The position numbers were made by a program, and so were the translations under genes. The notes beneath the pieces were generated by a model that searched no databases, was not told the origin of the DNA, and saw only the letters and a program-made list of their open reading frames with translations. Positions 1 to 52,653 of a DNA stretch of 64,000 nucleotides are shown one piece after another (positions within the stretch are counted from its first letter, which is position 1; every line of letters starts with the position of its first letter). This stretch comes from an uncultured Lachnospiraceae bacterium (GTDB lineage: Bacteria > Bacillota > Clostridia > Lachnospirales > Lachnospiraceae): positions 62,001-126,000 of the forward strand of contig CANPUE010000005.1 of assembly GCA_947577185.1 (NCBI GenBank), in the 5' to 3' direction.

Positions 1-109
1 GATACATACTGCAAAGGATTACGTTTTTTAAACGTGTTCAGGACGATTCTATAGTTAAGGTCTTTTGATCTGAAAAGGAATAATCAAATATCACACGGAG
101 GTGATTATA
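1..109. other. Upstream region of flaG, no gene seen
   Basis: I see no open reading frame and no convincing SigD or SigA promoter in these bases. The only clear signal is a GGAGGTG ribosome binding site at 97-103, which serves flaG. The flagellar operon may begin to the left of the window. Confidence 0.5.
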
Positions 110-550
110 ATGGCAGTGGAACCATTAAGCAGTGCAATGGCTTACCAGGCACAGAGCACGGTAAAGCCGCAGACACAGCCAGTACAACCGGCGGACACGG
201 ATGTTTCACCGGTGAACCAGACGGCAAATGTGGATGCAGCCACTTCGTCTGTACAACAGACGCAGGCAGAAGAAGATAACGGAAACGGCAGTGCGGACAG
301 CAATCCGCAGCAAAAGCAGCAGGGCGCTTCCGAATCGCTGAAAAAGGCTGTTGCGGAGATGAACCGCAAGATCAACAATACAGACTCGGAAGCGGTCTTT
401 GGCATTCACGAGAAGACGAACAGAATTACGATCAAAATTGTGAACAAGGACACAAAAGAGATTCTGAAAGAATATCCGCCGGAAAAGACGCTGGATATGA
501 TCGCCAAAGTCTGGGAAGTGGCAGGAATTCTCGTTGATGAGAAATTATAG
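110..550 (+). CDS. flaG: FlaG family flagellar protein
   Basis: FlaG proteins are small cytoplasmic or filament-associated proteins encoded next to fliD; they influence filament length. The first 75 residues are a low-complexity linker rich in Q, T, P, A and S. The conserved FlaG domain fills about residues 75-146, with the family-typical core 'ITIKIVNKDTKEILKEYPPE' followed by 'KTLDMIAKVWEVAGILVDEKL'. The start is set at the ATG at 110 because GGAGGTG (97-103) is correctly spaced for it; an upstream in-frame GTG at 101 lies inside that ribosome binding site. It is followed by fliD after 12 bases, so the two are probably co-transcribed. The family call is secure from the C-terminal motif and context; the exact role in this organism is inferred. 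Confidence 0.9.
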   Translation: MAVEPLSSAMAYQAQSTVKPQTQPVQPADTDVSPVNQTANVDAATSSVQQTQAEEDNGNGSADSNPQQKQQGASESLKKAVAEMNRKINNTDSEAVFGIHEKTNRITIKIVNKDTKEILKEYPPEKTLDMIAKVWEVAGILVDEKL

Positions 551-562: not shown

Positions 563-3103
563 ATGGCAATTAGAATTACCGGTATGTATTCCGGGCTCGA
601 TACGGAGAGCATTATCAGCGAACTTGTATCGGCACAGAGCGTGAAGAAGAGTTCGCTTGTAAAGGCGCAGACCAAACTGAGCTGGAAGCAGGATGCCTGG
701 AAAGCATTAAATACGAAAATTTTTGACTTTTATACAAACGTATTGAGTGATATGCGTTACGAAGGCTCATACATGAAAAAAACCACCAAGATATCCAATC
801 CCAATGCGATTAGTGTTATCACCGGAGCAGATGCCGTAGACGGCGTGCGCACGGTTAAGGTTGACCAGCTTGCGCAGGGCGGTTATCTGACGGGCGGTAA
901 TCTGACGACGCCAAAGGGTGTCATGTTTACAGGCGGCGCAACTTTGGATCAGATCTGCAAGCAGTGGGGTGACTCTGCAGGATTCAGCGGTTCCGGCAGC
1001 ATTAACGTTGTGGGTGCGAACGGTGTATCTGTAAAAATTGATGTAAGCGGCGCTACGACGATCGATGATTTTGTCAAGAAAATACAGTCGACCGGCCTGA
1101 ATGCAAGCTATGATCAGGAAAACCAGAGAATCAATATCAGTTCCAAAGGAACCGGTGAGGCATGTAACTTTAATCTGGTAGCCAATGACGGGAACGGACT
1201 GAAAGCACTGGCAACGCTTGGATTATTGACGACAAGCGATCTTGGCAGTGAGGAAAATAAGAAATGGGCGGCATATTCGGATGGAGCCGGCGGATATACA
1301 CAGGCATTTTACGATGCGGTGGATGCGGAAATCAAGAGACGCGCGGACGCACTGAAGGCACAGAATGACAAACTGACAGAGGCTAATGGCAAGCTCGATG
1401 AGGCCAATCAGAAGTTATTTGACGATATGGATGATACCGATCATATCGGTGCCGGTTTCATGGCGAAATACGGCGTGAATCTTTCCGATCTGGAAGGACT
1501 CTACGATACGCTGATGAGCGCAAAAGCCGATTATGATGATAAGGTAAAGAACGGCGCTTCCCAGACAGATATCGACAATGCGAAAGCAGCGGCCGATGCG
1601 GCGCAGACGGCGTATGACGATCTGATGAAGAAAGCGGTTGATTATATCAATGACGAGTGCTATGGTCCTCTTGTTGATAAGAAGGACGCGGACGGCAACA
1701 TCGTATACGAGCAGAAGAAGGATGCCGATGGCAACCTTATGTATGAGCAGGCGAAAAATGATGACGGCAGCCTGAAATATGAACAGAAAAAAGATGCAGA
1801 CGGCAATCTTGTCTTTGAAGCGGATGGAACGACGCCTGTATACGATATGGATAAACCGGTCTATGACAAGACCAAGCCCATATATGACACTACAAAGCCT
1901 GTTAAAGTGCGCGAAGGCGGCGGCCTGAAAGATCAGTGGGAAGAGCAGTATAAGGCGGGCAGTGTAGATCCTGCACTGCAGGCGAAGGTCGATTCTCTGA
2001 ATAAGTGGAATTCGGCGCTGACATCACTGGAAAAGAACAGGACTGCGATCGATGCCAACAATGCACAGATGGTCAAAAATGCAGAATCAATCGAGGCTGA
2101 CGGTACGGCGAAGCAGCAGCTGAAGGATGCGGTGAATACGGAGTTTGAAAATAAAGTAAGCGCCGCTTTAGATTCTGAGAAGATATTAGAGGATTGGGAT
2201 AAACTGCAGGCAGATCCCAATGACCCGACCGTTGCGGCTGACAGTCTGGCAAGGAAGATGGTGGGAAGCAAAGTGGATGCGCAGGATGCCATCATCCATG
2301 TCAATGGGGCAGAATACACTTCGCTTACCAATAATTTCAGCATTAACGGCCTGAAACTGACTGTTCAGGAAGTAACAGATAAGGAAGTGACCCTGACGAC
2401 ATCCACCGATACCGATGGTATTTACAGTATGATCAAGAACTTCCTTACGGAATATAATAAACTGATCAACGAGATGGATGGGGCGTATAATGCAGAATCT
2501 TCTAAGGGATATGATCCGCTGACATCGGAGGAGAAAGAAGCGCTGAGCGAATCAGAAATAGAAGAATGGGAGAAAAAGATCAAGGACTCTCTTCTGCGCA
2601 GGGATTCCACACTGAGTTCAGTATCCTTTGCCATGGTATCCGTTATGATGCAGGGAACGACCGTAAACGGCAAAAACATGTATCTGTCGGATTTCGGTAT
2701 TAATACGCTGGGCTATTTCAAATCTGCGGAAAATGAGAAACATGCTTACCACATCGACGGCGATCCGGACGATTCCAGCGTGAAAGCCAATGCGGATAAG
2801 TTAAAGGCGGCGATCGCGACCAATCCCGAGGCGGTTACAGGTTTCTTTACAAACCTTGCGACCAATATGTACGATACGTTGACAGAGAAGATGGCTTCCA
2901 CCACATTAAGCAGCGCCTTTACCGTTTATAATGATAAACAGATGAAGGAAGAATACGACAGCTACAAAGACAAGATCGCTGCACAGGAAGAGAAACTCAA
3001 TAAGATGATGGATAAATGGTATAAGAAGTTTTCCGCGATGGAAGTTGCCATGTCCAAGCTGGAGTCCAGAAGCAGTTCACTGTCCAGTCTGTTTGGCGGT
3101 TGA
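563..3103 (+). CDS. fliD: Flagellar filament capping protein FliD (HAP2), long form
   Basis: FliD forms the cap at the growing filament tip and promotes flagellin polymerisation; it is exported by the flagellar type III system. The N-terminus 'RITGMYSGLDTESIISELV' is the classic FliD_N signature. A FliD_C domain follows at about residues 585-840, ending in a helical region. At 846 residues it is much longer than typical FliD (about 450-600). The extra length is a central insertion at about residues 225-560, made of charged coiled-coil-like sequence plus tandem repeats (residues 373-446). That zone corresponds to the surface-exposed variable D2/D3 part, so the insertion probably changes the cap surface. 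The ribosome binding site GGAGGG precedes the ATG. Chaperone-like genes fliS and a FliT-like gene follow. Confidence 0.93.
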   Translation: MAIRITGMYSGLDTESIISELVSAQSVKKSSLVKAQTKLSWKQDAWKALNTKIFDFYTNVLSDMRYEGSYMKKTTKISNPNAISVITGADAVDGVRTVKVDQLAQGGYLTGGNLTTPKGVMFTGGATLDQICKQWGDSAGFSGSGSINVVGANGVSVKIDVSGATTIDDFVKKIQSTGLNASYDQENQRINISSKGTGEACNFNLVANDGNGLKALATLGLLTTSDLGSEENKKWAAYSDGAGGYTQAFYDAVDAEIKRRADALKAQNDKLTEANGKLDEANQKLFDDMDDTDHIGAGFMAKYGVNLSDLEGLYDTLMSAKADYDDKVKNGASQTDIDNAKAAADAAQTAYDDLMKKAVDYINDECYGPLVDKKDADGNIVYEQKKDADGNLMYEQAKNDDGSLKYEQKKDADGNLVFEADGTTPVYDMDKPVYDKTKPIYDTTKPVKVREGGGLKDQWEEQYKAGSVDPALQAKVDSLNKWNSALTSLEKNRTAIDANNAQMVKNAESIEADGTAKQQLKDAVNTEFENKVSAALDSEKILEDWDKLQADPNDPTVAADSLARKMVGSKVDAQDAIIHVNGAEYTSLTNNFSINGLKLTVQEVTDKEVTLTTSTDTDGIYSMIKNFLTEYNKLINEMDGAYNAESSKGYDPLTSEEKEALSESEIEEWEKKIKDSLLRRDSTLSSVSFAMVSVMMQGTTVNGKNMYLSDFGINTLGYFKSAENEKHAYHIDGDPDDSSVKANADKLKAAIATNPEAVTGFFTNLATNMYDTLTEKMASTTLSSAFTVYNDKQMKEEYDSYKDKIAAQEEKLNKMMDKWYKKFSAMEVAMSKLESRSSSLSSLFGG
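1679..1900 (+). repeat. Tandem coding repeats inside fliD
   Basis: Four imperfect 36-base units (1679-1714, 1715-1750, 1751-1786, 1787-1822) encode 12-residue repeats of the type KKDADGNLxYEQ. After a 15-base linker come three 21-base units (1838-1858, 1859-1879, 1880-1900) encoding seven-residue repeats of the type VYDxxKP. Synonymous differences between units show they are not very recent copies. They lie in the variable middle of FliD. Confidence 0.9.
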
Positions 3104-3141
3104 TTTTTTAGAACAATGGTGTGTTAAGATCAAGGAGGAGA

Positions 3142-3525
3142 ATGACTATGCCGGCACGCAACCCGTTTGCGGAATATCAGAATAACAAAATACTGACAGC
3201 TTCCCCTGCGGAAGTGACGCTGATGTTATATGAGGGCGCGATTAAATTCTGTAATATCGCGATCATTGCGATCGAGCAGGGTGAGACTGAGAAAGCGCAT
3301 GTAAATATCAAAAAAACGCAGCGAATCATCGAAGAATTCAGAAATACACTGGATCATAAATATCCGGTAGCGGAGGACTTTGACAAGATTTATGTGTATC
3401 TTCAGCGCAGACTGCTTCAGGCCAATATCAAAAAAGATAAGGAGATCCTGGAAGAAGTCAATATGCATCTTCGGAGTGTCAGAGATACATGGAAAGAGGT
3501 TATGAAACGCTGCAGGGAAGCGTAG
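3142..3525 (+). CDS. fliS: Flagellar secretion chaperone FliS
   Basis: FliS binds the C-terminus of flagellin in the cytoplasm and prevents premature polymerisation before export. The sequence 'NPFAEYQNNKILTASPAEV' followed by 'TLMLYEGAIKFCNIAI' is the family signature. The length of 127 residues is typical. The start is placed at the ATG at 3142, directly after AAGGAGGAG (3131-3139). A GTG upstream at 3121 precedes that ribosome binding site and is unlikely to be used. The gene lies between fliD and a FliT-like gene, as usual in firmicutes. Confidence 0.93.
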   Translation: MTMPARNPFAEYQNNKILTASPAEVTLMLYEGAIKFCNIAIIAIEQGETEKAHVNIKKTQRIIEEFRNTLDHKYPVAEDFDKIYVYLQRRLLQANIKKDKEILEEVNMHLRSVRDTWKEVMKRCREA

Positions 3526-4230: not shown

Positions 4231-5283
4231 ATGGTAGTACAACACAACATTACAGCGATGAACGCGAACAGAATGCTTGGTTTGACAACAAGCGCACAGG
4301 CAAAGTCAACAGAGAAATTATCTTCCGGATATAAAATCAACCGCGCAGCAGATGATGCAGCAGGGTTGGCAATTTCCGAGAAGATGAGACGTCAGATCAG
4401 AGGTCTGAATCAGGCTTCCGCTAACGCTCAGGACGGTATCAGTGCAGTACAGACAGCAGAAGGTGCATTGAACGAAGTTGAGGATATGTTACAGAGAATG
4501 AACGAGCTGGCTGTAAAGGGTGAAACAGGAACTCTTACAACAACAGACCGTTCCGCGATCCAGTCCGAAGTTGCTCAGTTGATGAGTGAAATCGACCGTG
4601 TACAGAGCACAACGACATTCAACGAGATGAGCCTTCTTGACGGTACATTCATCAAAGGTATCCAGGTTGGTGCAGAAGCTGGTCAGCATATCAGCATCAG
4701 TATTGCCAACATGAGTATGTATGGTCTTGCAGCGGGCATCGACAACAAACTTTACACAGGCGTATCTTACAACAACCTGAGAGCAGGTTCAGTTACGATC
4801 GGCTCTACTACTTATGCAAACAATGGTAATGGCCAGATGATTGGTAGTGTTGGTAGCAGCAACGTAGCTACATGGTCAACATTTGCTGCAGGTGCAGGCG
4901 GTAAGTACAACAAGATCCCGATGACCACTGCGATTGCGAAAAAAGTAATCGCTACAATGACGAACCTGAAAGCTGGCGATCCTACTACGGTTGCTACATC
5001 ACAGGCGTTCAACTCTCTGAATGCATTTGTTAAGGGCGCATTGTCAGTTGTTTCCCAGCAGAGATCTGATCTTGGTGCAATCCAGAACAGACTTGAGCAC
5101 ACAATCAACAACTTGAACAACATCGCTGAGAATACCACATCTGCAGAAGCTGAAATCCGTGATACAGATATCGCTACAGAGATGGTTAAGTACTCTAACA
5201 ACAACATCTTACAGCAGGCTGGTACATCAATGTTGTCACAGGCAAATCAGTCCAATCAGTTGGCACTGTCCTTACTTGGCTAA
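4231..5283 (+). CDS. hag: Flagellin
   Basis: This is the main filament subunit, exported and polymerised outside the cell. The N-terminal D0/D1 domain begins 'MVVQHNITAMNANRMLG' and contains 'KLSSGYKINRAADDAAGLAI'. The C-terminal D0/D1 contains 'ATEMVKYSNNNILQQAGTSM' and ends in LLG. The length of 350 residues leaves a short central domain (about residues 170-250) rich in Ser, Thr, Gly and Asn. This region offers many hydroxyl residues that could be O-glycosylated. It is transcribed from a SigD-type promoter with a CsrA-type leader and ends at a strong hairpin terminator. Its codon use is that of a highly expressed gene, unlike the downstream island. A large glycan-assembly island begins right after it. 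Confidence 0.97.
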   Translation: MVVQHNITAMNANRMLGLTTSAQAKSTEKLSSGYKINRAADDAAGLAISEKMRRQIRGLNQASANAQDGISAVQTAEGALNEVEDMLQRMNELAVKGETGTLTTTDRSAIQSEVAQLMSEIDRVQSTTTFNEMSLLDGTFIKGIQVGAEAGQHISISIANMSMYGLAAGIDNKLYTGVSYNNLRAGSVTIGSTTYANNGNGQMIGSVGSSNVATWSTFAAGAGGKYNKIPMTTAIAKKVIATMTNLKAGDPTTVATSQAFNSLNAFVKGALSVVSQQRSDLGAIQNRLEHTINNLNNIAENTTSAEAEIRDTDIATEMVKYSNNNILQQAGTSMLSQANQSNQLALSLLG

Positions 5284-9985: not shown

Positions 9986-10553
9986 GATGCGCCTCCGATG
10001 GTCCCATACTTTTTCATGTCAGCGGCAGCGAAGTGGTAAAACAAACGAAGCAGCTGACCTTTCATAAAAGAAAAAGCAGGTCTATTGCTATTTGCGTTAT
10101 AATAATAGTATAATACTAATATAACAGAAATTCATTTGTTTGAATAGTTTGGAATGGAAAAATTATAAAGCGGAACTGAAAAAGAATGAGAAATTACCGG
10201 GTGTATGCCTGATCTATGAACGATTGGAGGGCAGGAGATTTGCAGGAATTGGTATTCTTATTCCCACTAAAGAAACTTTGATTAACTGCCGATATATCTA
10301 TTGTAGTTCAGGAAGAATGAAAAAAATGCACGGATGCAGGAATAAGAATGGAGTATCATCTGTTTATCGCTGTATTTGTGACGTGGCAGATGATATTTTT
10401 TCTGTCTGGAACTATTTTATTGTGCGTAGATGTGATTTGTGGTAGACTCATAATTAGTTTATGTATCATATTAAATAAATTAATATATGTTTGAATTTAT
10501 TGATTACGCAATGGCAAGTCCTGCACGCATATGGTAGAAAGGAGTATTTCAGT
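9986..10553. other. Divergent intergenic region with no confident gene
   Basis: This gap separates the minus-strand glycosyltransferases from the plus-strand island. It is AT-rich. It holds a SigA-type promoter (10085-10114) and a possible open frame from a TTG at 10140 to 10445. That frame has no ribosome binding site and no recognisable family, so I do not call it a gene. The region may hold a degenerate gene remnant. The ribosome binding site AAAGGAG at 10538-10544 belongs to the next gene. Confidence 0.5.
10085..10114 (+). promoter_or_regulatory. SigA-type promoter reading into the island
   Basis: TTGCTA (10085-10090), an 18-base spacer and a perfect TATAAT (10109-10114) form a plausible vegetative promoter. 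It is the best candidate I see for the start of the 50-kb plus-strand gene run, although it lies about 440 bases before the first confident gene. Confidence 0.5.
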
Positions 10554-13091
10554 ATGAGAAAGGCGCATAAAAAAATGGCGTTAGATATGATTGCGTCATT
10601 TGATGAGGCACATGGTGAAATACGTCGGTATATAGAAGAAAAGAAATTGCAGCAGGCCATGGATTTGCTTGTACAGTGTCAGGAAGGTGCTGTTAAGCTC
10701 GGAGAGTTTATTGACGATATGGAAGGCGCAGGAACTGAAACAGTATCCCTGATAGAAACGTATTGCGAACGGATTTATCAGGTTTATGAAGATCTTTACA
10801 GCAGCCGGATATTTAACGTAAATAATAGTTACAAACGATTTCGGAAATTATTGATTCGAATAGAAAACAGTATCAGAAATGATATTAAAACCAGATTAGA
10901 AATTGCGTTTTTGCCGTATAAGGCATCTATGTGGGACTCATTGGAAAGTGTATGGATGGCCGCTGATGCTGATCCTGACTGTGATGCATATGTAGTTCCA
11001 ATCCCTTATTATAGAAGAAACGAAGACGGTTCTTTGGGAGAGTATCATTATGAAGGAAAACAGTTTCCGGAATATGTGCCCGTGATTTTTTACGAGGACT
11101 ATCTCCTGAAAGAACGTCAGCCGGATATTATTTATATCCATAATCCATACGACCAGGGGAACCATGTGACCAGTGTTGATCCCAGATATTATTCCGCTGA
11201 GTTAAAAAAGTATTCGACAACGTTAGTGTATATACCATATTATATAACGTCCGGCGGCATGAGCGAGGGACAGTCATTATGTCTTGGATACCTGAATGCT
11301 GATTATATTATCGTACAGGCAGAAAAATACAGGAAATATTTTGATTCCATGATTTCTCAGGAAAAATTGCTCCCGTTAGGTTCACCCAAAGCGGATCGAA
11401 TTATTCGTCTTTGCCAGAACCCTCCGGAACCGCCAGCAGGATGGAAAGAAAAAATGGCGGGTAGAAAAGTATATTTCTATAACACCAGCATATCCGGGAT
11501 GTTAAGCAATACGAGAAAATTTTTATTAAAAATGGAATATGTATTTAAGTGTTTTCAGGGGAGAGAGGATGCCTGCCTTTTGTGGCGTCCACACCCTTTA
11601 TTGGAGTCTACTTTTGACTCTATGAGGAAGGAATATAAGCCGTTTTATGAACAGTTAAAACGGATTTTTATAGCAAATAAAGGATGGATCTATGATGATA
11701 CACCGGATATTGAGATGACGATCGCAAACAGTGATGCCTATATAGGAGATGAGGGATCCTCGGTAACAGCGATGTTTGGTCTGGCAGGCAAACCTCTCTT
11801 TATTTTGAAGAATGCAATTCATACGCTGCCGCAGGAGGATGACTGGCGGGGAGAAATTATCAGGGGTTTTGCGGTAGACGGCAAAGATGAATGGATGATT
11901 ACACAGGGCAACCGGCTTTATCATTCACCGGAAAATGATCACCATTACGAATGGTATTGTGATCTGTCAGAGTTTGCATATGGGAATTATTATCTGGGGG
12001 TTTTTGAGATTCTGGGAAGAGTATATGCGTGTCCGGTAAATGCACAGGCGATTCTTGTGATTGAGGAGCATAAAGTTGTTAAAAAGATTCCTCTGAAAGA
12101 AGCGACAGAAAAAGCGAGGGCATTTTATAATGCAGGACGTGTCGGAGAATATTTATTCCTGATTCCGTTAAACTACCATGCGATTGTCAGGTATGATACG
12201 CAGCGAGATCAGGTTGATTACATAGAAGGATATAAAGAACTGTTTGTGCAGAATGTACAGGGAGAGTGGAGAAACGGAGGAGGCATTACCTGGAAAAATT
12301 ATGTTTTGCTTGCATCTCCGACGGATAACAGGGTTCTTTTTATCGATGCTGAAACGATGCAGGTTCAGGTTCTTACTACAGGCGGCAAAAGCACATGCGG
12401 CTGTTCGGTAATTGTCGCGGAACGGGATGAAATCTGGCTGCTGCCTTATGTCGGCCGGACAGTGACAAGATGGAATCCTGAGACTGGATTCGTAAAAGAA
12501 TATACAGACATGCCGGAAGGATTTCAATGCATGGATAAATCGCGGGACATTATGGTGGAAGAAAAACCGTTTGGATGGGGGGTCTCTTACCAGGGAAAAT
12601 TCATTTTATCTCCCTTGCGCGGAAACATGTTTGTGGAAATAGATAAAGAGACAGGTGAAGTAAAAGAGTGGAAACTGCCATTTGAGGTGCCATTCGGGGA
12701 AAGCGGTTATTTCCCGGCAAATAGTGTAGAACTGATATTTAAGACAGATAGGTCTGAAGAGAATATTTATCGTTTATGGCATGGAGCAGAGTGCCGGCTA
12801 TATGATTTTAACATGGAAACCGGAGCAGCCTGGGAAATTGAAATTATATTCGACCGGGATGAACTGCGCAAGCATGAAGCCGGATTCAGTGAGGATAGTG
12901 ACTGGCTGGCATATGCATGCAGAGAAAATGCAATGAATTCACTTCCGGATTTTTTGAATGACGGAATATGTGGCAGTCTTTTTGACCGGGAAAGGCAGCT
13001 TGCAGCTTATCGTAACATGACGGCCAATAATGACGGAAGCTGTGGAGAAAAGATCCATCAGACAATTTGCGCTGCATGTATGAAAGGATGA
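10554..13091 (+). CDS. CDP-glycerol glycerophosphotransferase-like protein with C-terminal propeller-like domain
   Basis: The middle of this 845-residue protein resembles TagB/TagF enzymes, which transfer glycerol phosphate from CDP-glycerol. Characteristic motifs are 'LWRPHPLLES' (about residue 342) and 'YIGDEGSSVTAMFGLAGKP' (about residue 397), the equivalents of the RxHP and T/DxxSS elements. Residues 1-110 are helical. After residue 465 come repeated beta-rich segments ('YLGVFEILGRVYACPVNAQA', 'RNGGGITWKNYVLLAS', 'FGWGVSYQGKFILSPL') that look like blades of a beta-propeller. The start is the ATG at 10554, nine bases after AAAGGAG; a TTG at 10491 lies before that site. It is first in a run of tightly spaced genes, four bases before the cytidylyltransferase fusion. 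The polyol transferred is unknown. Confidence 0.75.
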   Translation: MRKAHKKMALDMIASFDEAHGEIRRYIEEKKLQQAMDLLVQCQEGAVKLGEFIDDMEGAGTETVSLIETYCERIYQVYEDLYSSRIFNVNNSYKRFRKLLIRIENSIRNDIKTRLEIAFLPYKASMWDSLESVWMAADADPDCDAYVVPIPYYRRNEDGSLGEYHYEGKQFPEYVPVIFYEDYLLKERQPDIIYIHNPYDQGNHVTSVDPRYYSAELKKYSTTLVYIPYYITSGGMSEGQSLCLGYLNADYIIVQAEKYRKYFDSMISQEKLLPLGSPKADRIIRLCQNPPEPPAGWKEKMAGRKVYFYNTSISGMLSNTRKFLLKMEYVFKCFQGREDACLLWRPHPLLESTFDSMRKEYKPFYEQLKRIFIANKGWIYDDTPDIEMTIANSDAYIGDEGSSVTAMFGLAGKPLFILKNAIHTLPQEDDWRGEIIRGFAVDGKDEWMITQGNRLYHSPENDHHYEWYCDLSEFAYGNYYLGVFEILGRVYACPVNAQAILVIEEHKVVKKIPLKEATEKARAFYNAGRVGEYLFLIPLNYHAIVRYDTQRDQVDYIEGYKELFVQNVQGEWRNGGGITWKNYVLLASPTDNRVLFIDAETMQVQVLTTGGKSTCGCSVIVAERDEIWLLPYVGRTVTRWNPETGFVKEYTDMPEGFQCMDKSRDIMVEEKPFGWGVSYQGKFILSPLRGNMFVEIDKETGEVKEWKLPFEVPFGESGYFPANSVELIFKTDRSEENIYRLWHGAECRLYDFNMETGAAWEIEIIFDRDELRKHEAGFSEDSDWLAYACRENAMNSLPDFLNDGICGSLFDRERQLAAYRNMTANNDGSCGEKIHQTICAACMKG

Positions 13092-19284: not shown

Positions 19285-19312
19285 TGTGTGACTGTGGTAT
19301 GGAGGAATTATT

Positions 19313-20041
19313 ATGCAGGCAATCATAATGGCAGCCGGAAAAGGAAGCCGGCTGGGGGATTTGACGGGAGGAAAACCGAAGTCTTTCGTGGAAATACAAG
19401 GGAAAAAATTAATCGAATATAATCTGAAACTTTTAGAGAAGTACCATATAGATGAAATTATTATTGTTACCGGATATCAGAGTGAAGCGTTTGAAGCGCT
19501 GAGTGCGGACAGGAAGAATGTCCGACTGGTATTTAATCCGTTTTACGAGATGGTTAATGTGCTGGGCTCCTTTTATATGGGAATGGAAATGCTTCATGAT
19601 GATTTTATTTATTTACATGCAGATACTTTGTGTGAACCCATTATATTTGAAAAACTGGTTCGCCTGGATGCAGATATTGTACTGCCTGTCGATTATAAGA
19701 TATGTGATGATGAAGCAATGAAAATCCGCAGTGAAAACGGAAAAATAGTGCAGATAACGAAACAGATGCCTTCAGATGAAGGAGAGGGCGAATTTATTGG
19801 CATGGCGGCTTTCAGAAAAGAAGTTCTACCTGCCTTAAAAGAAGCGGCCAAGCAGCTTATGAAGGAAAAGGCCTTTTCAGTTTATTTTGAGAGTGCCATA
19901 CAAAGGCTGATTGAGGAAGAAGATTTTTGTATTAAGACAGTTCCTACTGAAGGAGCTTTCTGGGCAGAGATTGATTTTATAGAAGATTATAACAAGGCAA
20001 AGGCACAAATGCCTAAAAGTCTGACAGAAATATTTATATAG
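19313..20041 (+). CDS. Sugar or polyol phosphate nucleotidyltransferase (LicC-like)
   Basis: Residues 1-25 carry the nucleotidyltransferase signature 'IIMAAGKGSRLGDLTGGKPK'. The metal-binding element 'IYLHADTL' is near residue 100, and 'EIDFIEDYNKA' sits close to the C-terminus. The length of 242 residues resembles phosphocholine cytidylyltransferase and related CTP- or UTP-using enzymes. It follows the alcohol dehydrogenase at 28 bases and precedes a CDP-glycerol glycerophosphotransferase at 17 bases. It probably makes the activated alcohol or sugar used by a neighbour. A second, distinct nucleotidyltransferase at 27668 belongs to the phosphoramidate cassette. Confidence 0.85.
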   Translation: MQAIIMAAGKGSRLGDLTGGKPKSFVEIQGKKLIEYNLKLLEKYHIDEIIIVTGYQSEAFEALSADRKNVRLVFNPFYEMVNVLGSFYMGMEMLHDDFIYLHADTLCEPIIFEKLVRLDADIVLPVDYKICDDEAMKIRSENGKIVQITKQMPSDEGEGEFIGMAAFRKEVLPALKEAAKQLMKEKAFSVYFESAIQRLIEEEDFCIKTVPTEGAFWAEIDFIEDYNKAKAQMPKSLTEIFI

Positions 20042-20058
20042 AGGGAACGACAAGGATA

Positions 20059-21323: not shown

Positions 21324-22481
21324 ATGAAAAGCAAAATAAGAGTATTGCAGTTCCCTATCGCCAATTCAAATGGCGGCATAACTCACTATGCATTAAATAA
21401 TTGGCAATGGATGGATAAAAGTCAGTTTTCATGCGATTTTGTTACTATGAGTGCACAACTGACATTCGAAGATGACATATTGAGTTCGGGGAGCAAAGTG
21501 TACCATATTTCCTGTTATGCAGAAGAGGACAGACAACAGTTTATAAAAGAATTTCGAAGTATATTGGAGCAGGGATATGATGTGGTCCATCTTCATACGA
21601 AGCAATGGAAGAGTTTTTTGATAGAAGATATATGCAGGGAATATCATATTCCAAAGGTGATTGTGCATGCTCACAATACGGCGATAGATGGAGTCGATAA
21701 AGACAAACGGGAGTACGAATTATGCCTTCATGAGAAAATAAAAGCAGAGTTTAATGAGAATCTGGCAACAGATTTTTGGGCCTGCTCAAAGCTGGCGGCA
21801 GATTTTCTGTTTGGAAAGCAGATACCGGAATCGAAGATTGCCGTTATGCCAAATGCAATAGAATTGGATCGTTTTTCTTTTGATCAGACGGTGCGCAGTC
21901 AATATAGAAAAGAATATGGGTTGGAAAACTGTTTTGTGATAGGGAATGCCGCACGGTTTGAATATCAGAAAAACCATGAATTTTTGATCGATTTATTCTA
22001 TGAAATATCGCTTGAAATAGATAATGCGAGATTAGTATTGCTGGGAGACGGCTGTCTTTTTGAAGAAATTCAGGAAAAAGTAAGAAACTTAAATCTGGAA
22101 AATAAAGTTTTATTTGTTGGCAGACGGGATGATGTAGACCACTGGTATCAGGCAATGGATGTTTTCTGTCTTCCGTCAAGGTTTGAGGGTCTGCCGATTG
22201 CATTGGTAGAAGCACAGGCGTCAGGACTTCTGTGTGCTGCCAGTGATACAATTACAGACGAGGCGGCAATTTGTGATCACGTGTGGATGCTGCCTTTAAA
22301 ACCTGAAGTATGGAGAGACAAAATCCTCCGCCTGCATCAGGATCAGGTACATAAGCACAGAAAGAGTCAGGCAGAACGTAATATCATTGACCTGCAAAAA
22401 GCAGGATATGATATACAAATTCAGATTAAATGTATTGAAGAAGAATATCGAAGGCTGAGAAAGGAATGTAGGTCAGAGTGA
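21324..22481 (+). CDS. GT4-family glycosyltransferase
   Basis: GT-B fold glycosyltransferase of 385 residues. The N-terminal domain begins 'IRVLQFPIANSNGGITHYAL', a typical GT4 start. The C-terminal nucleotide-sugar domain shows 'NAARFEYQKNHEFLIDLF', 'LLGDGCLFEEI' and the E-x7-E type motif 'RFEGLPIALVEAQASGLL'. It acts in the cytoplasm on a nucleotide sugar donor. The final four bases overlap the start of the APS-kinase-like gene (GTGA), so translation is probably coupled. The donor sugar is unknown. Confidence 0.9.
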   Translation: MKSKIRVLQFPIANSNGGITHYALNNWQWMDKSQFSCDFVTMSAQLTFEDDILSSGSKVYHISCYAEEDRQQFIKEFRSILEQGYDVVHLHTKQWKSFLIEDICREYHIPKVIVHAHNTAIDGVDKDKREYELCLHEKIKAEFNENLATDFWACSKLAADFLFGKQIPESKIAVMPNAIELDRFSFDQTVRSQYRKEYGLENCFVIGNAARFEYQKNHEFLIDLFYEISLEIDNARLVLLGDGCLFEEIQEKVRNLNLENKVLFVGRRDDVDHWYQAMDVFCLPSRFEGLPIALVEAQASGLLCAASDTITDEAAICDHVWMLPLKPEVWRDKILRLHQDQVHKHRKSQAERNIIDLQKAGYDIQIQIKCIEEEYRRLRKECRSE

Positions 22482-23005
22482 GTGTGGAACGTGGGAAAGT
22501 TTTCTGGATTACCGGTTTGTCCGGAGCAGGAAAGACGACGATAGGCAAAGAACTATTCAAATTGGTAAAGGAAAAAGAAAAGAACACGGTACTCCTGGAT
22601 GGAGATGAAATGAGGGAAGTGTTTGGCAATGATTTGGGCTATTCGAAGGAGGACAGATTTCGCTGTGCCATGCGCTATGCCAGAATATGCCGTATGCTTG
22701 CCAATCAGGGGATTCATGTCATTATCTGCACAATTTCCATGTTTGAGGAAGTCAGGGCATGGAACCGGGAAGAAATAGCCGGATATATCGAAATCTATGT
22801 AAGAGTCCCGATGGAATTACTGAAAGAGCGCAATCAGAAAGAATTATATTCGGAATGCGAAAATGGCAGTACCGGAAATGTTGTGGGAATGGATCTGGAA
22901 CTGGAACTGCCGAAGAATCCGGATTTGATTATTGACAATACAGGGGAAAGTACACCAGAGCAGATTGTAGATAAGATATGGAAGAAATTTTTACAGGACA
23001 TTTGA
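22478..23005 (+). CDS. APS-kinase-like protein, probable cytidine diphosphoramidate kinase
   Basis: The P-loop is 'VFWITGLSGAGKTTIG' (residues 8-23), followed by 'LLDGDEMREVFGNDLGYSKE', the APS kinase signature. At 175 residues it is a single-domain CysC. In the known Campylobacter jejuni pathway, the CysC-like enzyme Cj1415 phosphorylates cytidine diphosphoramidate at the 3'-hydroxyl. Here the gene is followed by candidate glutamine kinase, amidotransferase-like hydrolase, methyltransferases and cytidylyltransferase, the same families as in that pathway. No ATP sulfurylase is present, which argues against PAPS synthesis. The GTG start overlaps the previous stop by four bases. A real APS kinase cannot be excluded from sequence alone. 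Confidence 0.8.
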   Translation: MSVERGKVFWITGLSGAGKTTIGKELFKLVKEKEKNTVLLDGDEMREVFGNDLGYSKEDRFRCAMRYARICRMLANQGIHVIICTISMFEEVRAWNREEIAGYIEIYVRVPMELLKERNQKELYSECENGSTGNVVGMDLELELPKNPDLIIDNTGESTPEQIVDKIWKKFLQDI

Positions 23006-23054
23006 TTATTGCTGCGGAAAATGCAGACATCTGAAGAGAGGGAACCAGTCAGGA

Positions 23055-25379
23055 ATGAAATGTAATTTAGGTACGAAAGCAGATACGTTGCATCAAATAT
23101 TCGGTAAGTTGAAATATGCGAAAGTTTTGCCGCAGTTTGCATTTACCGTAAAACAATGGAAGGAACAAAATAATGATTTGATCCAAAAATATCGTGACAG
23201 CAATTGGGATCAGGTAATTGTCCGCAGCAGCGCGTTAAATGAGGATACGAACGTGTCTTCGCAGGCAGGCAGATTTGAATCTGTAGGAAATGTCACGGAT
23301 GAGAGGGCTTTCAGAGATGCTGTTGAGACGGTGATTGATTCTTACGAGGATGAAGACGAATCCAATCAGGTTCTGGTACAGCCAATGCTGAAACATGTAA
23401 AAATGAGCGGCGTTGCATTTACACTGGATCCTAACACGGCAGGAAACTATTATGTTATTAATTATGACGAATCAGGTTCTACGTCGTCCGTTACATCAGG
23501 AAATGTTAAGAAGGATCGTCTGCTGTACATATTTAAGGGCACGGAGATTACGAAAGGAAAGTTCGAGACAACAATTTGCAATTGTCTGCGGGAACTGGAA
23601 CAGATATTTGACAGATCAAGCCTGGATGTGGAATTTGCGGTCAATGAAGAAAACGAAGTTTATATCTTACAGGTTCGGCCGTTGTGTATTTCCGGGAGAG
23701 AGATGTCAATTGAAACGCAGCAGAAATGCCTGAAGGACATCAGCAATAAAATAGCATTCCAAAATTCGCCGAAACCTTTTTTGTATGGCAAAAAGACGAT
23801 CTATGGAGTTATGCCGGACTGGAATCCTGCAGAAATTATAGGTGTCCGGCCAAAGCCGCTGGCATTGTCCTTATATAAAGAAATTGTAACGGATACCACA
23901 TGGGCGTATCAGAGGAACAATTATGGATATCGAAATCTCAGAAGTTTCCCACTTCTGCTTGATTTTTGCGGACTGCCTTACATTGATGTCAGGGTGAGCT
24001 TTAACTCGTTTATACCGGCACAGCTGAGTGCGGATATTGCGGAAAAACTCGTCAATTATTATCTGGAAAAGCTGGAAAAGCATCCGGATCTGCACGATAA
24101 AATTGAGTTTGAAATTGCGTTTACCTGCTATACGCCTGACCTGTCAGACAGAATAAAATGTTTATCAGATTATGGATTCAGTGAGAAAGAAATATCAGAA
24201 ATTGTCGAAGCACTGCGCGACATGACGAATGTGATCATAGACAATGAAGAAGGACTGTGGAAGATGGATTATAAGAAAATTCAGATTCTGGAGGACCGAT
24301 ATCAGGAGATCATGAACAGTGATCTTGATTATGTATCAAAGATCTATTGGCTTTTGGAGGACTGCAAACGATATGGAACACTTCCCTTTGCAGGGCTGGC
24401 AAGAGCAGGATTCATTGCGGTACAGCTTATGAAATCTCTGGTCAATATGCAGATAATATCGGAGAAGGAATACAATGAATTTATGGGAGAGCTGGCTACT
24501 GTAAGTTCTACGATGAAAAAAGATAAATTGGAAATGTCTAAAAAAGCCTTTCTGAATAAGTATGGACATTTGCGGCCGGGTACTTATGACATTTGTTCTA
24601 AGAGGTATGATGAGGCGCCGGATATTTATTTTGACTGGGATCAGACAGAAACGGAATCCGAAGAGGGGAAAATACCTTTCAGACTGTCATTGAAACAGAT
24701 AGAGGCGTTGAAAATCATGTTTAAAGAGCATGGAATGGCAGATGATATTCTGGGTTTCTTTCACTTTATCCGAACTGCAATCGAGGGACGTGAGTATGCC
24801 AAGTTCGTGTTTACGAAGAGTCTCAGTGAAGCCATTCGGCTTTTTGGAAAATTGGGAGAAGAGCAGGGGATACCACTGGAAGAGTGTGCCTATGCTGATA
24901 TCGGGATAGTCACAAAATTATATGCGTCCAGTATAGCGTGCGGGGATGTAATGAGGGATTCCATCGCAAAGGGAAAAGAAAAATATCACATTACGGAAAG
25001 TATCACGCTTCCTCCGCTTATATGCAATCAGGATGATGTATTCTGCTTTTATTATATGGAAGCACAGCCCAATTATATTACATTAAAGCAGGCGCTTGGA
25101 GAGACATTTGTCATTGATACAGAATTAAAACAGTTTGATCTGGAAGATAAAATTATTTTAATGGAAAGCGCCGATCCGGGATACGACTGGATTTTCTCAC
25201 ATAAAATCTCAGGGTTCATTACAAAGTACGGCGGTGCCAACTCTCATATGGCGATCCGTGCGAATGAACTTCAGATACCGGCTGTGATTGGTGCAGGTGA
25301 AAAGATATTTGAAAAGATCAAAAGTGCAAAAGTAGTACAGATTGATGCATCCGGAAGAAAGGTGGATATCTTAAAATGA
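23055..25379 (+). CDS. PEP-synthase-like protein, probable L-glutamine kinase
   Basis: The protein has 774 residues and three domains: an N-terminal ATP-grasp domain of the PEP/pyruvate-phosphate dikinase type with 'VIVRSSALNEDTNVSSQAGR' (from about residue 55) and 'VYILQVRPL'; a long central helical domain; and a C-terminal phosphohistidine swivel domain with 'YGGANSHMAIRANELQIPAV', where His731 is the expected phospho-carrier. It lacks the PEP-binding TIM barrel of true PEP synthase. That architecture matches Campylobacter jejuni Cj1418, which phosphorylates the amide nitrogen of L-glutamine, the first step of phosphoramidate synthesis. The next gene overlaps it as ATGA and encodes a Cj1417-like hydrolase. 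Other dikinase-like antibiotic kinases exist, but the neighbourhood favours glutamine kinase. Confidence 0.85.
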   Translation: MKCNLGTKADTLHQIFGKLKYAKVLPQFAFTVKQWKEQNNDLIQKYRDSNWDQVIVRSSALNEDTNVSSQAGRFESVGNVTDERAFRDAVETVIDSYEDEDESNQVLVQPMLKHVKMSGVAFTLDPNTAGNYYVINYDESGSTSSVTSGNVKKDRLLYIFKGTEITKGKFETTICNCLRELEQIFDRSSLDVEFAVNEENEVYILQVRPLCISGREMSIETQQKCLKDISNKIAFQNSPKPFLYGKKTIYGVMPDWNPAEIIGVRPKPLALSLYKEIVTDTTWAYQRNNYGYRNLRSFPLLLDFCGLPYIDVRVSFNSFIPAQLSADIAEKLVNYYLEKLEKHPDLHDKIEFEIAFTCYTPDLSDRIKCLSDYGFSEKEISEIVEALRDMTNVIIDNEEGLWKMDYKKIQILEDRYQEIMNSDLDYVSKIYWLLEDCKRYGTLPFAGLARAGFIAVQLMKSLVNMQIISEKEYNEFMGELATVSSTMKKDKLEMSKKAFLNKYGHLRPGTYDICSKRYDEAPDIYFDWDQTETESEEGKIPFRLSLKQIEALKIMFKEHGMADDILGFFHFIRTAIEGREYAKFVFTKSLSEAIRLFGKLGEEQGIPLEECAYADIGIVTKLYASSIACGDVMRDSIAKGKEKYHITESITLPPLICNQDDVFCFYYMEAQPNYITLKQALGETFVIDTELKQFDLEDKIILMESADPGYDWIFSHKISGFITKYGGANSHMAIRANELQIPAVIGAGEKIFEKIKSAKVVQIDASGRKVDILK

Positions 25380-25984
25380 AAAAAATCATCTTTACGCAGC
25401 GGGTGGAAATTGTGGAGAGTTATGGAGAGCGAAGGGACTGTGCGGATCAAAACATTGCCTGTTTTCTGGAAGCATGCGGATATATACCGGTGCCTGTACC
25501 TAACGTTCTCAAAGATATGGATGCTTTTTTGAAAGCAATACAACCGGAAGGAATTCTTTTAACCGGCGGAAACAGTTTACAAAAGTGGGGAGGCAATGCA
25601 GCCGAAAGAGACCGGACAGATTATGAATTGATTCGTCTGGCAATCCAAAATAAGATTCCTCTATATGGATTCTGCCGGGGCATGCAATCTATATTGGACT
25701 ATTTTGGATGTGAACTGTCGCAGGTACAGGGGCACGTTGCAGTGCGTCATGAAGTTTGGGAACAACAGGCAGATACGAGATTCCTGACAAACAGTTTTCA
25801 TAATCAGGCATGCTTTAGAGAGAACCTGAAAGTCCCGCTATATGCGGCTGCGTGCACGGAGGACGGCGTAGTGGAATGGGTCAGGCATGAGTCGCTGCCA
25901 ATCGAAGCAACGATGTGGCATCCGGAAAGAGAGGTTCCATTTGCAGAAACTGATTTGGAAAGAGTTAAGAAATTATTTCAGTAA
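25376..25984 (+). CDS. Class I glutamine amidotransferase-like hydrolase, probable CDP-L-glutamine hydrolase
   Basis: A peptidase C26/class I amidotransferase fold of 202 residues. The nucleophile elbow is 'PLYGFCRGMQSILDYFG' with Cys100; His182 and Glu184 in 'MWHPEREVPF' complete the triad. It begins 'KKIIFTQRVEIVESYGERRD', like small gamma-glutamyl hydrolases. In the Campylobacter jejuni phosphoramidate pathway, Cj1417 of this family releases glutamate from CDP-L-glutamine to give cytidine diphosphoramidate. The start codon overlaps the glutamine-kinase-like gene by four bases, a strong sign of coupled function. No separate synthase partner is adjacent, so it probably acts as a stand-alone hydrolase. 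Confidence 0.87.
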   Translation: MKKIIFTQRVEIVESYGERRDCADQNIACFLEACGYIPVPVPNVLKDMDAFLKAIQPEGILLTGGNSLQKWGGNAAERDRTDYELIRLAIQNKIPLYGFCRGMQSILDYFGCELSQVQGHVAVRHEVWEQQADTRFLTNSFHNQACFRENLKVPLYAAACTEDGVVEWVRHESLPIEATMWHPEREVPFAETDLERVKKLFQ

Positions 25985-26018
25985 ATAAATGAAAACAACA
26001 TAGTAAAGGAGAAAAGAA

Positions 26019-26795
26019 ATGAAACATGGGGACTTTACAGAATTGGCAAAATTCTATGTGGACAGACCCGGATATTCAAAAGTAGCGTTGGAGTGTCTGA
26101 AAAATTATGTTTTTAACATGGTCGGAGAAGGTAAAGTGGCGGATATCGGGGCGGGAACCGGAAAGCTGACAGAAAACCTGATTGAGATTGGATTGCGTGG
26201 TTATGCAGTAGAACCTAATTGCGCAATGCGCGCCGAAGCCGCTAAAAATCCCGGGGGGGGGTATGTCTGGTCTGAAGGAACGGCCGAGGACACTGGGCTT
26301 GAGGACAACTGTGTTCATTGGGTGTTAATGGGTTCTTCTTTTCACTGGGCGGATAGTGCGAAGGCAGTCCGGGAGTTTTACCGGATTTTGATACCGGGAG
26401 GTTTTTTTACGGCAATCTGGAATCCAAGGGATATTGAGAGCAGCGAACTGCATAAAAGAATTGAGGATGCCGTTTATGGTGAATTACCGGAAATGAAAAG
26501 AGTCTCTTCGGGGAAAACAGTTTCGACAGAGGAAATGAAAGAAAAACTGCTCAGCGGAGGGTATTTTAAGAATATTCTTTCTGTGGAAGCTCCGCATGTG
26601 GAGCTGATGACAAAAGAAAGATATATGAATATATGGAAGTCTGTTAATGATATTCAAGTGCAGGCAGGTGAAGAAGGATTTCGGAGAATTTTACATAGAA
26701 TTGAAGAAATCATACAAAAATATGATGAAATAGAAGTTCCATATCTTTCCAGGTCATGGACTGTGCAAAGCTGTAAGCAGACGATGACCGATTAA
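26019..26795 (+). CDS. Class I SAM-dependent methyltransferase (phosphoramidate cassette, first copy)
   Basis: This protein has 258 residues. SAM motif I is 'VADIGAGTGKLTENLIEIG' (about residues 40-58), with the acidic 'AVEPNCAMR' after the next strand. Motifs further on include 'WVLMGSSFHWAD' and 'GGFFTAIWNPRD'. It begins 'FTELAKFYVDRPGYS', very like the next gene, so the two are tandem paralogs. Campylobacter jejuni has two methyltransferase genes (Cj1419, Cj1420) beside the phosphoramidate genes; they are thought to install the O-methyl group. AAAGGAG precedes the ATG. Which copy methylates which intermediate is unknown. Confidence 0.87.
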   Translation: MKHGDFTELAKFYVDRPGYSKVALECLKNYVFNMVGEGKVADIGAGTGKLTENLIEIGLRGYAVEPNCAMRAEAAKNPGGGYVWSEGTAEDTGLEDNCVHWVLMGSSFHWADSAKAVREFYRILIPGGFFTAIWNPRDIESSELHKRIEDAVYGELPEMKRVSSGKTVSTEEMKEKLLSGGYFKNILSVEAPHVELMTKERYMNIWKSVNDIQVQAGEEGFRRILHRIEEIIQKYDEIEVPYLSRSWTVQSCKQTMTD

Positions 26796-26860
26796 GTGAG
26801 GCGCCTGTATTTCTTCATTTGCAATTGCCTTGGATAAGAATAAAAAGGAGGATTGTAACT

Positions 26861-27610
26861 ATGAAAACAGAATGGGATTACACAGATCTTGCGGAGGCAT
26901 ATCTGAAAAGACCGGATTATGCACAGAGTGCGATCGACAAAATGCTTGAGATTTCCGGGGTGAGAAAAGGAGACGAAGCCTGCGATGTTGGAGCCGGTGC
27001 AGCTCATCTTACATTAAAGCTGGCAGAATATGGATTGAATATCTGTGCAGTGGAGCCAAACGATGCCATGCGTAATAACGGAATAAAGAAAACAGGCCAG
27101 TATGCAAATGTGCAATGGTTTGAAGGTGTTGGAGAGCATACCGGGATGGAAAGCAGCCGTTTCAATCTGGTGACCTTTGGTTCTTCGTTTAATGTATGTA
27201 ACCGTCAGGAAGCTTTATTGGAAAGTAAGCGGATTTTAAAAGACAACGGGTGGTTTGCCTGTATGTGGAATCACAGGGATCTGAATGATCCGCTTCAAAA
27301 AGAGATAGAGGAAATATTGATGGCGCAAATCGAAGATTATAGCTATGGAACCCGTCGGGAGGATCAGACAGAGATCATTGACCAGAGCAATCTGTTTGGG
27401 GAAGTAAAATATGTTGAAGGAACTGTTTTGCATGAGATTCTTGCCGAGGACTTTATTGAAGGATGGAAGTCTCACGGGACGGTACAGCGTCAGTCAAAAG
27501 ACAAATTTGATCTTATCAATCAGGAGATTCGGAAACTGGTAGAAGCAAAAGGCAAAGAATACATCAAAGTGCCTTATACGACCAGAATCTGGATGGCCCA
27601 GGTAAAATAA
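26861..27610 (+). CDS. Class I SAM-dependent methyltransferase (phosphoramidate cassette, second copy)
   Basis: Paralog of the preceding gene, 249 residues. Motif I reads 'ACDVGAGAAHLTLKLAEYG', with the second Gly of the usual GxGxG replaced by Ala, followed by 'AVEPNDAMRNNG'. 'LVTFGSSFNVCNRQEAL' and 'NGWFACMWNHRDLND' align with the first copy. The start is the ATG at 26861 after AAGGAGG (26845-26851); an earlier in-frame start at 26819 lies before that site. The altered glycine could make this the non-catalytic or modulating partner of a heterodimer, but that is inference. Together they mirror the Cj1419/Cj1420 pair. Confidence 0.87.
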   Translation: MKTEWDYTDLAEAYLKRPDYAQSAIDKMLEISGVRKGDEACDVGAGAAHLTLKLAEYGLNICAVEPNDAMRNNGIKKTGQYANVQWFEGVGEHTGMESSRFNLVTFGSSFNVCNRQEALLESKRILKDNGWFACMWNHRDLNDPLQKEIEEILMAQIEDYSYGTRREDQTEIIDQSNLFGEVKYVEGTVLHEILAEDFIEGWKSHGTVQRQSKDKFDLINQEIRKLVEAKGKEYIKVPYTTRIWMAQVK

Positions 27611-27667
27611 GATCAGGGATCAGACGTATCGATAGAAACAAATAAAGCGATGCAAAGGGGATTGGGA

Positions 27668-28447
27668 ATGAAAGTAATAATTTTGGCAGCAGGACAGGGA
27701 ACGCGGCTTCGGCCGCTAACCGACAACTGCCCGAAGTGCATGGTTGAAGTTAATGGAAAGAGCATAATAGAAAGACAAATAAATACGATGCGTTCCTGCG
27801 GCATACAGGATAGTGAGATTACAATCGTATGTGGTTACTGTCATGAAGTTTTGAAAGAGAAATTTCGCGATACACAGATTCGATTTATAGTTAATGAAGA
27901 GTATGAGACAACCAATATGGTATGTTCGCTTATGTGTGCCAGAGAGGTCATGAATACAGCGGATGATATCCTGATCTCATATGGAGATATTATTTATAGT
28001 GAAGAGGTTTTGAACAGACTGCTTCAGACGACGGAGGATTCAGCGGTTATTGTAGATGACGGCTGGTATGGATACTGGTCGGAGAGATGTGAAAACCCGT
28101 TAGATGATGCGGAAACATTATTGTTTGATGCGGAAGATTTTCTCATTGAGATTGGGCAGAAAACGACGGATCTCAATAAAGTGCAGTCACAATATATCGG
28201 TTTAATGCGTTTTAGAGCGGCGGGCTTAAAATCGATGCTTGATGTGGCGGCATTGGCAGAGAAACGCAGCGATGAAGGAAAAGAATTGTGGCGTACCACC
28301 AGAACTTATCGGAAAATGTATATGACAGATTTGCTGCAGGGTATTATCGATGAGGGACATCAACTGAAAGCGGTACATATAAACAGGGGTTGGTTTGAAG
28401 TGGATGACTGCGATGATTTAAAATTGGTTGAGCAGAAAATAAGGTAG
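27668..28447 (+). CDS. Nucleotidyltransferase, probable CTP:phosphoglutamine cytidylyltransferase
   Basis: Residues 4-23 carry 'IILAAGQGTRLRPLTDNCPK', the nucleotidyltransferase signature. 'LISYGDIIYSEEVL' provides the metal-binding Asp near residue 100. 'NPLDDAETLLFDAEDFLIEI', 'QSQYIGLMRF' and 'MYMTDLLQGII' resemble what I recall of Campylobacter jejuni Cj1416, which couples CTP with L-glutamine phosphate. It is clearly different from the LicC-like gene at 19313. The start at 27668 has AAAGGGG (27654-27660) at seven bases; an upstream ATG at 27650 lies before that site. With the neighbouring kinase, hydrolase and diphosphoramidate kinase it completes the four-enzyme donor route. Confidence 0.85.
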   Translation: MKVIILAAGQGTRLRPLTDNCPKCMVEVNGKSIIERQINTMRSCGIQDSEITIVCGYCHEVLKEKFRDTQIRFIVNEEYETTNMVCSLMCAREVMNTADDILISYGDIIYSEEVLNRLLQTTEDSAVIVDDGWYGYWSERCENPLDDAETLLFDAEDFLIEIGQKTTDLNKVQSQYIGLMRFRAAGLKSMLDVAALAEKRSDEGKELWRTTRTYRKMYMTDLLQGIIDEGHQLKAVHINRGWFEVDDCDDLKLVEQKIR

Positions 28448-52641: not shown

Positions 52642-52653
52642 GGGAGAAATTTA

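Follow-up and report, generated by a model that had tools for sequence, protein, structure and literature searches.

A predicted phosphoramidate donor cassette in a clostridial flagellar island, with a candidate sulfotransferase-fold transferase

The closest described system to the locus considered here is the Campylobacter jejuni pathway for the capsular O-methyl phosphoramidate (MeOPN) group (Cj1415-Cj1422), which is alike in having a glutamine kinase, a cytidylyltransferase, a hydrolase, a CysC-like 3'-kinase and two methyltransferases. According to the available part of PMC11800397, Cj1415-Cj1418 together make a 3'-phosphorylated cytidine diphosphate (CDP)-amidate and deletions of Cj1421 and Cj1422 lose MeOPN, while no function is given there for Cj1419 and Cj1420; the first enzymatic step was assigned in PMC6429109, likewise available in part. 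In the accessible portions of other sources, the modification is described as only identified in Campylobacter sp. (PMC6429109), the glutamine kinase as C. jejuni-specific (PMC9561416), and cj1416-1418 orthologues are reported in 13 of 30 Campylobacter strains (PMC3907429). Flagellar glycosylation work touches the subject in the part seen of PMC2674064, which cites the MeOPN paper once, for a Campylobacter coli flagellar sugar; the string "phosphoramid-" does not occur in PMC13317340, on Clostridium flagellar glycosylation, and the titles and abstract beginnings among the literature matches listed mention no such cassette outside Campylobacter or in flagellar islands. Here we describe a six-gene cassette in a 64,000-nucleotide stretch of DNA (the window, bases 62001-126000 of contig 5) from an uncultured Lachnospiraceae bacterium with a genome of 2.49 Mb, 67.47% complete. 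The cassette probably makes an activated (O-methyl) phosphoramidate, which the surrounding island would put on a glycan, most likely that of flagellin.

Six intact, stop-free open reading frames (ORFs) form an operon-like row on the plus strand at 22478-28447, as an earlier sequence-only reading of this DNA had stated. The gene families that it named were recovered by Pfam and NCBIfam scans, the catalytic residues of the kinase (His731) and the hydrolase (Cys100/His182/Glu184) sit at the positions it gave, and the ATGA overlap between these two genes is read in the sequence as a four-base overlap. A further overlap, GTGA, links the first cassette gene (22478) with the preceding glycosyltransferase gene. 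The cassette consists of the following genes:

22478..23005, plus strand: CysC-like protein of the adenosine phosphosulfate (APS) kinase type (APS_kinase; NF004041), proposed cytidine diphosphoramidate 3'-kinase, Cj1415-like.
23055..25379, plus strand: phosphoenolpyruvate (PEP)-synthase-like protein (PPDK_N and PEP-utilizers domains; NF004508; His731), proposed L-glutamine kinase, Cj1418-like.
25376..25984, plus strand: class I amidotransferase-like protein (Peptidase_C26/GATase; NF045546), proposed gamma-glutamyl-CDP-amidate hydrolase, Cj1417-like.
26019..26795, plus strand: class I methyltransferase type a (MTa; Methyltransf_11).
26819..27610, plus strand: class I methyltransferase type b (MTb; Methyltransf_11), probable start 26861.
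27650..28447, plus strand: nucleotidyltransferase (NTP_transf_3; LicC, 1jyk), proposed cytidine triphosphate (CTP):phosphoglutamine cytidylyltransferase, Cj1416-like, probable start 27668.

The two probable starts were read from translations, and the true starts of these ORFs may thus be internal. For the glutamine kinase, the 23055 protein scores 978.6 bits with NF004508 (PRK05849; curated cut-off 501), compared with at most 65 bits for PEP synthase models and 35.6 bits for rifamycin phosphotransferase, and these scores rule out an assignment to either of the latter enzymes. NF004508 itself is named "hypothetical protein", and it presumably includes Cj1418. The active sites were aligned with those of related loci (80 in all, described below), only ORFs above a bit-score limit being used (59, 78, 66 and 58 of the 80 loci); the swivel His731 is kept in 76 of 78 related kinases, with gaps in the other two, and the Cys100/His182/Glu184 triad in 59 of 59 related hydrolases. 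The best NCBIfam family of the 25376 protein is NF045546, gamma-glutamyl-CDP-amidate hydrolase, at 107.7 bits (next family 41.1), and the same model matches 20 of 20 related hydrolases scanned, with the best E-value among the families tallied, so the protein looks like such a hydrolase. The refuting conditions set by the earlier reading, as far as they could be applied, did not refute its identification of the cassette: the dikinase falls far from the PEP synthase and rifamycin models, and the hydrolase agrees as to the best family, but at a score under the curated cut-off. The best solved relative of the 27650 protein is LicC (CTP:phosphocholine cytidylyltransferase, 1jyk), a likeness that does not by itself separate Cj1416 from other cytidylyltransferases, and no dedicated phosphoglutamine cytidylyltransferase model occurs among the NCBIfam matches listed (25 of 36).

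For the 3'-kinase, the 22478 protein scores 201.9 bits with NF004041 (cut-off 127) and reads ISMF at the site where four aligned solved APS kinases have SP. Position 88, the P of this motif, is M in 39, L in 16, I in two and P in one of 58 aligned cassette 3'-kinases, all of which keep the P-loop residues G13, G18 and K19. We infer that the missing SP motif may be a mark of a CDP-amidate 3'-kinase family. Two genes further along the island belong to the same question:

51484..52641, plus strand: second APS-kinase-like domain fused to a methyltransferase (APS_kinase and Methyltransf_25), proposed second CDP-amidate 3'-kinase.
52654..55404, plus strand: 916-residue protein with a sulfotransferase-fold domain at residues 426-740 (bases 53929-54873; assigned with Foldseek), candidate phosphoramidate transferase.

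The 51484 domain has IAMY in place of the SP motif and aligns with the 22478 protein at 45% identity. The adjoining APS_kinase and sulfotransferase folds at 51484-55404 would also suit a sulfation island, in which the APS-kinase-like proteins make 3'-phosphoadenosine 5'-phosphosulfate (PAPS), the sulfotransferase-fold protein sulfates a glycan and the other genes serve an unrelated product; the ATP sulfurylase genes cysD and cysN adjoining the core on a Vibrio alfacsensis plasmid (L029) also favor this explanation and count against a phosphoramidate. However, ATP sulfurylase (PF01747) and CysD (TIGR02039) have no match in this genome, where a completeness of 67.47% leaves their absence unproven, the P of SP is gone in 57 of the 58 cassette 3'-kinases aligned, and the glutamine kinase and hydrolase are close companions in these loci. 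Sulfation was rejected as the main explanation because the SP motif is lost and no ATP sulfurylase was found here, and it is regarded as highly improbable.

The distribution of the cassette was studied with a profile made from ten aligned kinases, which, at one genome per species, found at least 580 relatives; the best 80 were kept as loci. These were chosen by the kinase alone, overrepresent the nearest relatives and contain some near copies (L044/L046 and L061/L062). In searches around the kinase (tblastn at 1e-6), 76 loci gave a match to the hydrolase, 75 to the cytidylyltransferase, 68 to the 3'-kinase and 59 to a methyltransferase; 56 loci have every kind of gene. Since loci picked by their kinase hold the hydrolase, cytidylyltransferase and 3'-kinase in such numbers, the grouping of the cassette genes is not chance. 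The kinase tree covers 11 NCBI phylum-level groups and the linked cassette occurs across them, against the Campylobacter-only view of the reviews; no locus titled Campylobacter is among the best 80 of the at least 580 relatives. Close to home the kinase is sparse, being over the family cut-off in one of 299 genomes of a phylum sample (this genome) and matching at E <= 1e-20 in 7 of 200 genomes of the same bacterial family, with the same-genus genome G358 not among them.

Gene fusions are seen repeatedly. The 3'-kinase and glutamine kinase are fused in eight of the 80 loci (L095, L097, L099, L105, L108, L114, L116 and L120), which form one tree branch of six Acidobacteriota and two Pseudomonadota, and the glutamine kinase and hydrolase share a single ORF in L033, L035 and L036. 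In Azospirillum (L028:5576-8161) the 3'-kinase domain ends a protein in which Pfam matches nothing over the first ~650 residues, a part that could hold another type of transferase, and the glutamine kinases at L029:8353-11340 and L030:8260-11358 carry an extra N-terminal nucleotidyltransferase-like region. Kinase, hydrolase and cytidylyltransferase occur together on plasmids of Azospirillum (two), Vibrio alfacsensis, Pseudohalocynthiibacter, a deltaproteobacterium and Agrobacterium vitis, and the kinase only on plasmids of Cupriavidus and Microvirga. A phage-borne cassette was also considered and discarded, since none of the 44 pattern matches from a scan of viral contigs was a relative; a fused kinase-hydrolase gene does occur in an unverified "Bacteriophage sp." record (L033), which is probably bacterial DNA.

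On the Agrobacterium vitis plasmid (L041:8908-13997), a LysE-type exporter and a CDP-alcohol phosphatidyltransferase come after kinase, hydrolase and cytidylyltransferase, and the product there is perhaps secreted or lipid-like. In five other loci (L031, L037, L038, L039 and L042, one of them on the Cupriavidus plasmid near nifK), the kinase stands without any other cassette match in the fetched flanks. Both arrangements would agree with a pathway whose final product is a small molecule or some other phospho-amide, and not a surface decoration; here, however, the cassette sits within a long series of glycosyltransferase and sugar genes, and such an end product is considered improbable for this locus.

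For the methyltransferases, type b (26819) is found by itself in 26 of the 80 loci, type a (26019) by itself in 24, both in nine and neither in 21, type a thus being present in 33 and type b in 35. On this distribution the two types seem able to replace each other, which might explain the lack of apparent change in knockouts of Cj1419 or Cj1420 (as described in the available part of PMC11800397). A methyltransferase accompanies the 3'-kinase in 58 of 68 loci, against one of 12 loci lacking it (Fisher 3.5e-7); this association is taken as a trend only, because the kinase tree offers just four independent pairs (median p 0.25). In L034, from the same bacterial family (genome G402), a formyltransferase-like gene (PF00551; L034:6399-7142) is flanked by donor genes, a hint that this genome may make a formylated variant of the phosphoramidate.

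The assignment of steps in this locus follows from family, active site and co-occurrence; for C. jejuni, we presume the enzyme for each step after the first, and take Cj1419 and Cj1420 to be methyltransferases. Judged in this way, the cassette very probably encodes a donor pathway. The 23055 protein would phosphorylate the amide nitrogen of L-glutamine, the 27650 protein would join phosphoglutamine to cytidine monophosphate from CTP, and the 25376 protein would cut glutamate off, giving cytidine diphosphoramidate, to which the 22478 protein (probably also the 51484 domain) would add a 3'-phosphate. The 26019 and/or 26819 proteins would at some stage add the O-methyl group. Finally, the 52654 protein would bind the 3'-phosphorylated nucleotide in the way that PAPS is bound by sulfotransferases, and would move the phosphoramidate to a sugar hydroxyl. 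Several points tell against this scheme: the likeness to Cj1415-Cj1420 is one of gene kind and family; the hydrolase score of 107.7 bits stays below the curated NF045546 cut-off of 250 and so outside strict membership; and G402 carries the four donor genes with no methyltransferase of type a or b and no sulfotransferase-like domain.

For the acceptor, the flagellar genes of the window come into play:

101..550, plus strand: FlaG (PF03646).
563..3103, plus strand: FliD, flagellar cap (FliD_N and FliD_C).
3121..3525, plus strand: FliS, flagellin chaperone (PF02561).
4231..5283, plus strand: flagellin (Flagellin_N and Flagellin_C), proposed final acceptor protein.

These four genes lie 17-22 kb upstream of the cassette in the same island, and the cassette is held by a long plus-strand run that starts at 10491. 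FlgN-like, FlgK, FlgL and FliW genes, named by reading translations, lie to the left of the window; to its right come Glf, a FliD_C match just under the cut-off, a FlxA-like protein and then rpoB. A flagellar filament gene is present in the fetched flanks of 17 of the 80 relatives (flagellin in 12, flgK/flgL in five); the latter are Pseudomonas-type loci, two of them near copies, with the match ~1.5-4 kb upstream. Flagellin is counted in 12 loci since in L068, L070 and L079 its weak matches fall on the flgL match, and a FlaG query had no match in the fetched flanks of the 80 relatives. On the kinase tree the flagellar label changes 10 times among the 41 of 86 rows counted (45 rows with short flanks or without a state were left out). 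A rough estimate, taking 22 kb of ~3 Mb per genome, would put the number of such loci expected by chance at fewer than one per flagellar cluster. The setting beside flagellar genes, which the sequence-only reading had offered as new, was found as described, but it is not unique, since the cassette is spread over many phyla and recurs close to flagellar genes.

Flagellin glycan is somewhat favored as the acceptor, an estimate that was lowered slightly because flagellin sits 17 kb from the cassette. This distance, the four opposite-strand glycosyltransferase genes in between (three with TPR repeats and one with DUF3880) and the 63 of 80 relatives without a flagellar gene in their fetched flanks, some on short contigs, weaken the flagellar case. 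The distance and the relatives without flagellar genes favor instead a polymer of the cell surface, such as a capsule, an exopolysaccharide or a teichoic acid-like one, receiving the same donor, with the flagellar neighborhood coincidental; the known case is a capsule (available part of PMC11800397), the island is rich in CDP-glycerol-type and glycosyltransferase genes, and L030 adjoins neuC, a sugar transferase and a polysaccharide tyrosine autokinase. A polymer acceptor is nevertheless thought the less likely alternative, with about one chance in three. No Pfam match to flippase, polymerase (Wzx/Wzy), priming transferase or ABC-export/exporter families was found in the 48 window ORFs scanned, a set that left out small ORFs and in which four ORFs matched nothing (3489, 10491, 52654 and 58975). 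In addition, flagellar genes lie to the left and FliD_C-like and FlxA-like genes to the right, and the flagellar placement recurs on separate branches of the kinase tree.

The strongest new lead is the candidate transferase encoded at 52654, directly after the 51484 fusion gene. Pfam found no match in this protein or in its relative at L044:8314-10017, while L060 passes PF13469 narrowly (27.3 vs 27). With the predicted structure as Foldseek query, however, PDB matches at E<=0.001 number 16, and every one is a sulfotransferase (best 5wri_A, 2.0e-6). An iterated model of residues 426-740 finds the domain in 34 of the 80 cassette loci and in one of 200 same-family genomes, namely this one; if that is the same draw of 200 genomes as for the kinase, the six other kinase-bearing family genomes lack it. 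PF13469 or PF00685 matches nine of 10 cassette-linked relatives scanned, which had been chosen because the iterated model matched them, two weakly; L102 is under the cut-off and L117 has no match. In close relatives the large protein adjoins the 3'-kinase or the kinase. Arg584 is present in 40 of 40 non-gap rows of the domain alignment, and we take Arg and Ser, the latter at the position of residue 592, to form the 3'-phosphate-binding motif.

A number of observations make the 52654 protein a tentative choice, whose chance as the phosphoramidate transferase is put a little short of even. It has Ala592 at a position where Ser is present in 30 of the 41 relatives that are not gapped there, it sits 24 kb after the cassette, and its model has a mean pLDDT (predicted local distance difference test) of 69.3, mostly 70-92 within the domain and weak at 601-630. 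Furthermore, the domain is found in 31 of 68 loci with a 3'-kinase (37 without it, in reach) and in three of 12 without one, an association that is not significant (Fisher p 0.22) and that does not support a strict dependence of the domain on the 3'-kinase; it occurs in only six of the 17 flagellar loci and in none of the five of Pseudomonas type. Two other genes are of interest as transferases:

10491..13091, plus strand: protein with a GT-B-like (glycosyltransferase fold B) N-terminal domain in the predicted structure (mean pLDDT 61.3), possible alternative transferase or glycosyltransferase.
20059-21276, plus strand: CDP-glycerol glycerophosphotransferase-like protein (Glyphos_transf), rival transferase.

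It is possible, though less likely, that a GT-B protein, whether CDP-glycerol glycerophosphotransferase-like or of another sort (10491, 20059, 32016 or 45576), is the transferase and acts on CDP-amidate, and that the sulfotransferase-fold protein does something else. The GT-B-like fold predicted for the 10491 protein (50 PDB matches listed, mostly UDP-GlcNAc 2-epimerases, best 6.1e-10) and the presence of its relatives directly before the kinase in L049, L055 and L092 speak for this, as does the Vibrio alfacsensis locus, which has a CDP-glycerol glycerophosphotransferase after the three-gene core and gave no match to the 3'-kinase. Yet such an enzyme leaves the 3'-phosphate unexplained, and relatives of the 10491 protein occur in just seven of the 80 loci, plus L034. 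With the sulfotransferase-fold protein as transferase, by analogy the 3'-phosphate would be the handle that enzymes of this fold use on PAPS. In the literature matches listed for Cj1421 and Cj1422, the word sulfotransferase does not occur. It is possible, though held with less confidence than the role of the 52654 protein itself, that a widespread system uses 3'-phospho-CDP-amidate as a PAPS look-alike, with a sulfotransferase-fold family moving (O-methyl) phosphoramidate onto glycans, in several lineages flagellin glycan. If true, this would explain the presence of the 3'-kinase and name the missing transferase class.

Other genes of the island include:

19313-20041, plus strand: second nucleotidyltransferase (NTP_transf_3).
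28454-30517, six bases past the cassette: family 2 glycosyltransferase domain and a long C-terminal region without assignment.

The former belongs to a row at 16556-21276, together with an FGGY kinase, an Fe-dependent alcohol dehydrogenase and the CDP-glycerol glycerophosphotransferase-like gene, which possibly represents a CDP-alditol branch of the same glycan. Further cytidylyltransferase-like domains are encoded at 13096-14448, fused to a GFO_IDH_MocA oxidoreductase, and at 55441-57747, and the island seems rich in CDP-activated building blocks.

The evidence supports the earlier identification of the cassette, within the limits given above, in a setting that is recurrent and not unique. 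Its description makes testable the role of the 3'-phosphate, the protein that moves the phosphoramidate and the role of the two methyltransferases, as well as the existence of P-N bonds on the flagella of gut and soil bacteria, which phages and immune receptors might read. In comparison with known systems, an unmethylated phosphoramidate on a surface glycan outside Campylobacter is seen in the lipopolysaccharide of Xanthomonas campestris and Shewanella, which are Gram-negative and for which genes are not assigned in the part seen of PMC3907429, where these cases are cited. The type A flagellin modification of Clostridioides difficile is alike in that it decorates a flagellin-linked sugar with a phosphate-containing group and is encoded next to flagellin in a member of the Clostridia, and differs in being a phosphorylated N-methyl-threonine on N-acetylglucosamine, with no glutamine kinase cassette in the available text (PMC4441256). 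Synthesis of PAPS and PAPS-dependent sulfotransferases share with this locus a CysC-type kinase, an enzyme that places a 3'-phosphate on an activated nucleotide, as well as the sulfotransferase fold, here that of a candidate; in contrast, the SP motif is lost here, no ATP sulfurylase was found in the genome and the proposed donor is a CDP-amidate. The C. jejuni pathway resides in a capsule locus, whereas the cassette described here lies in a Gram-positive flagellar region that also encodes a second 3'-kinase-like domain, fused to a methyltransferase, and a sulfotransferase-fold candidate transferase.

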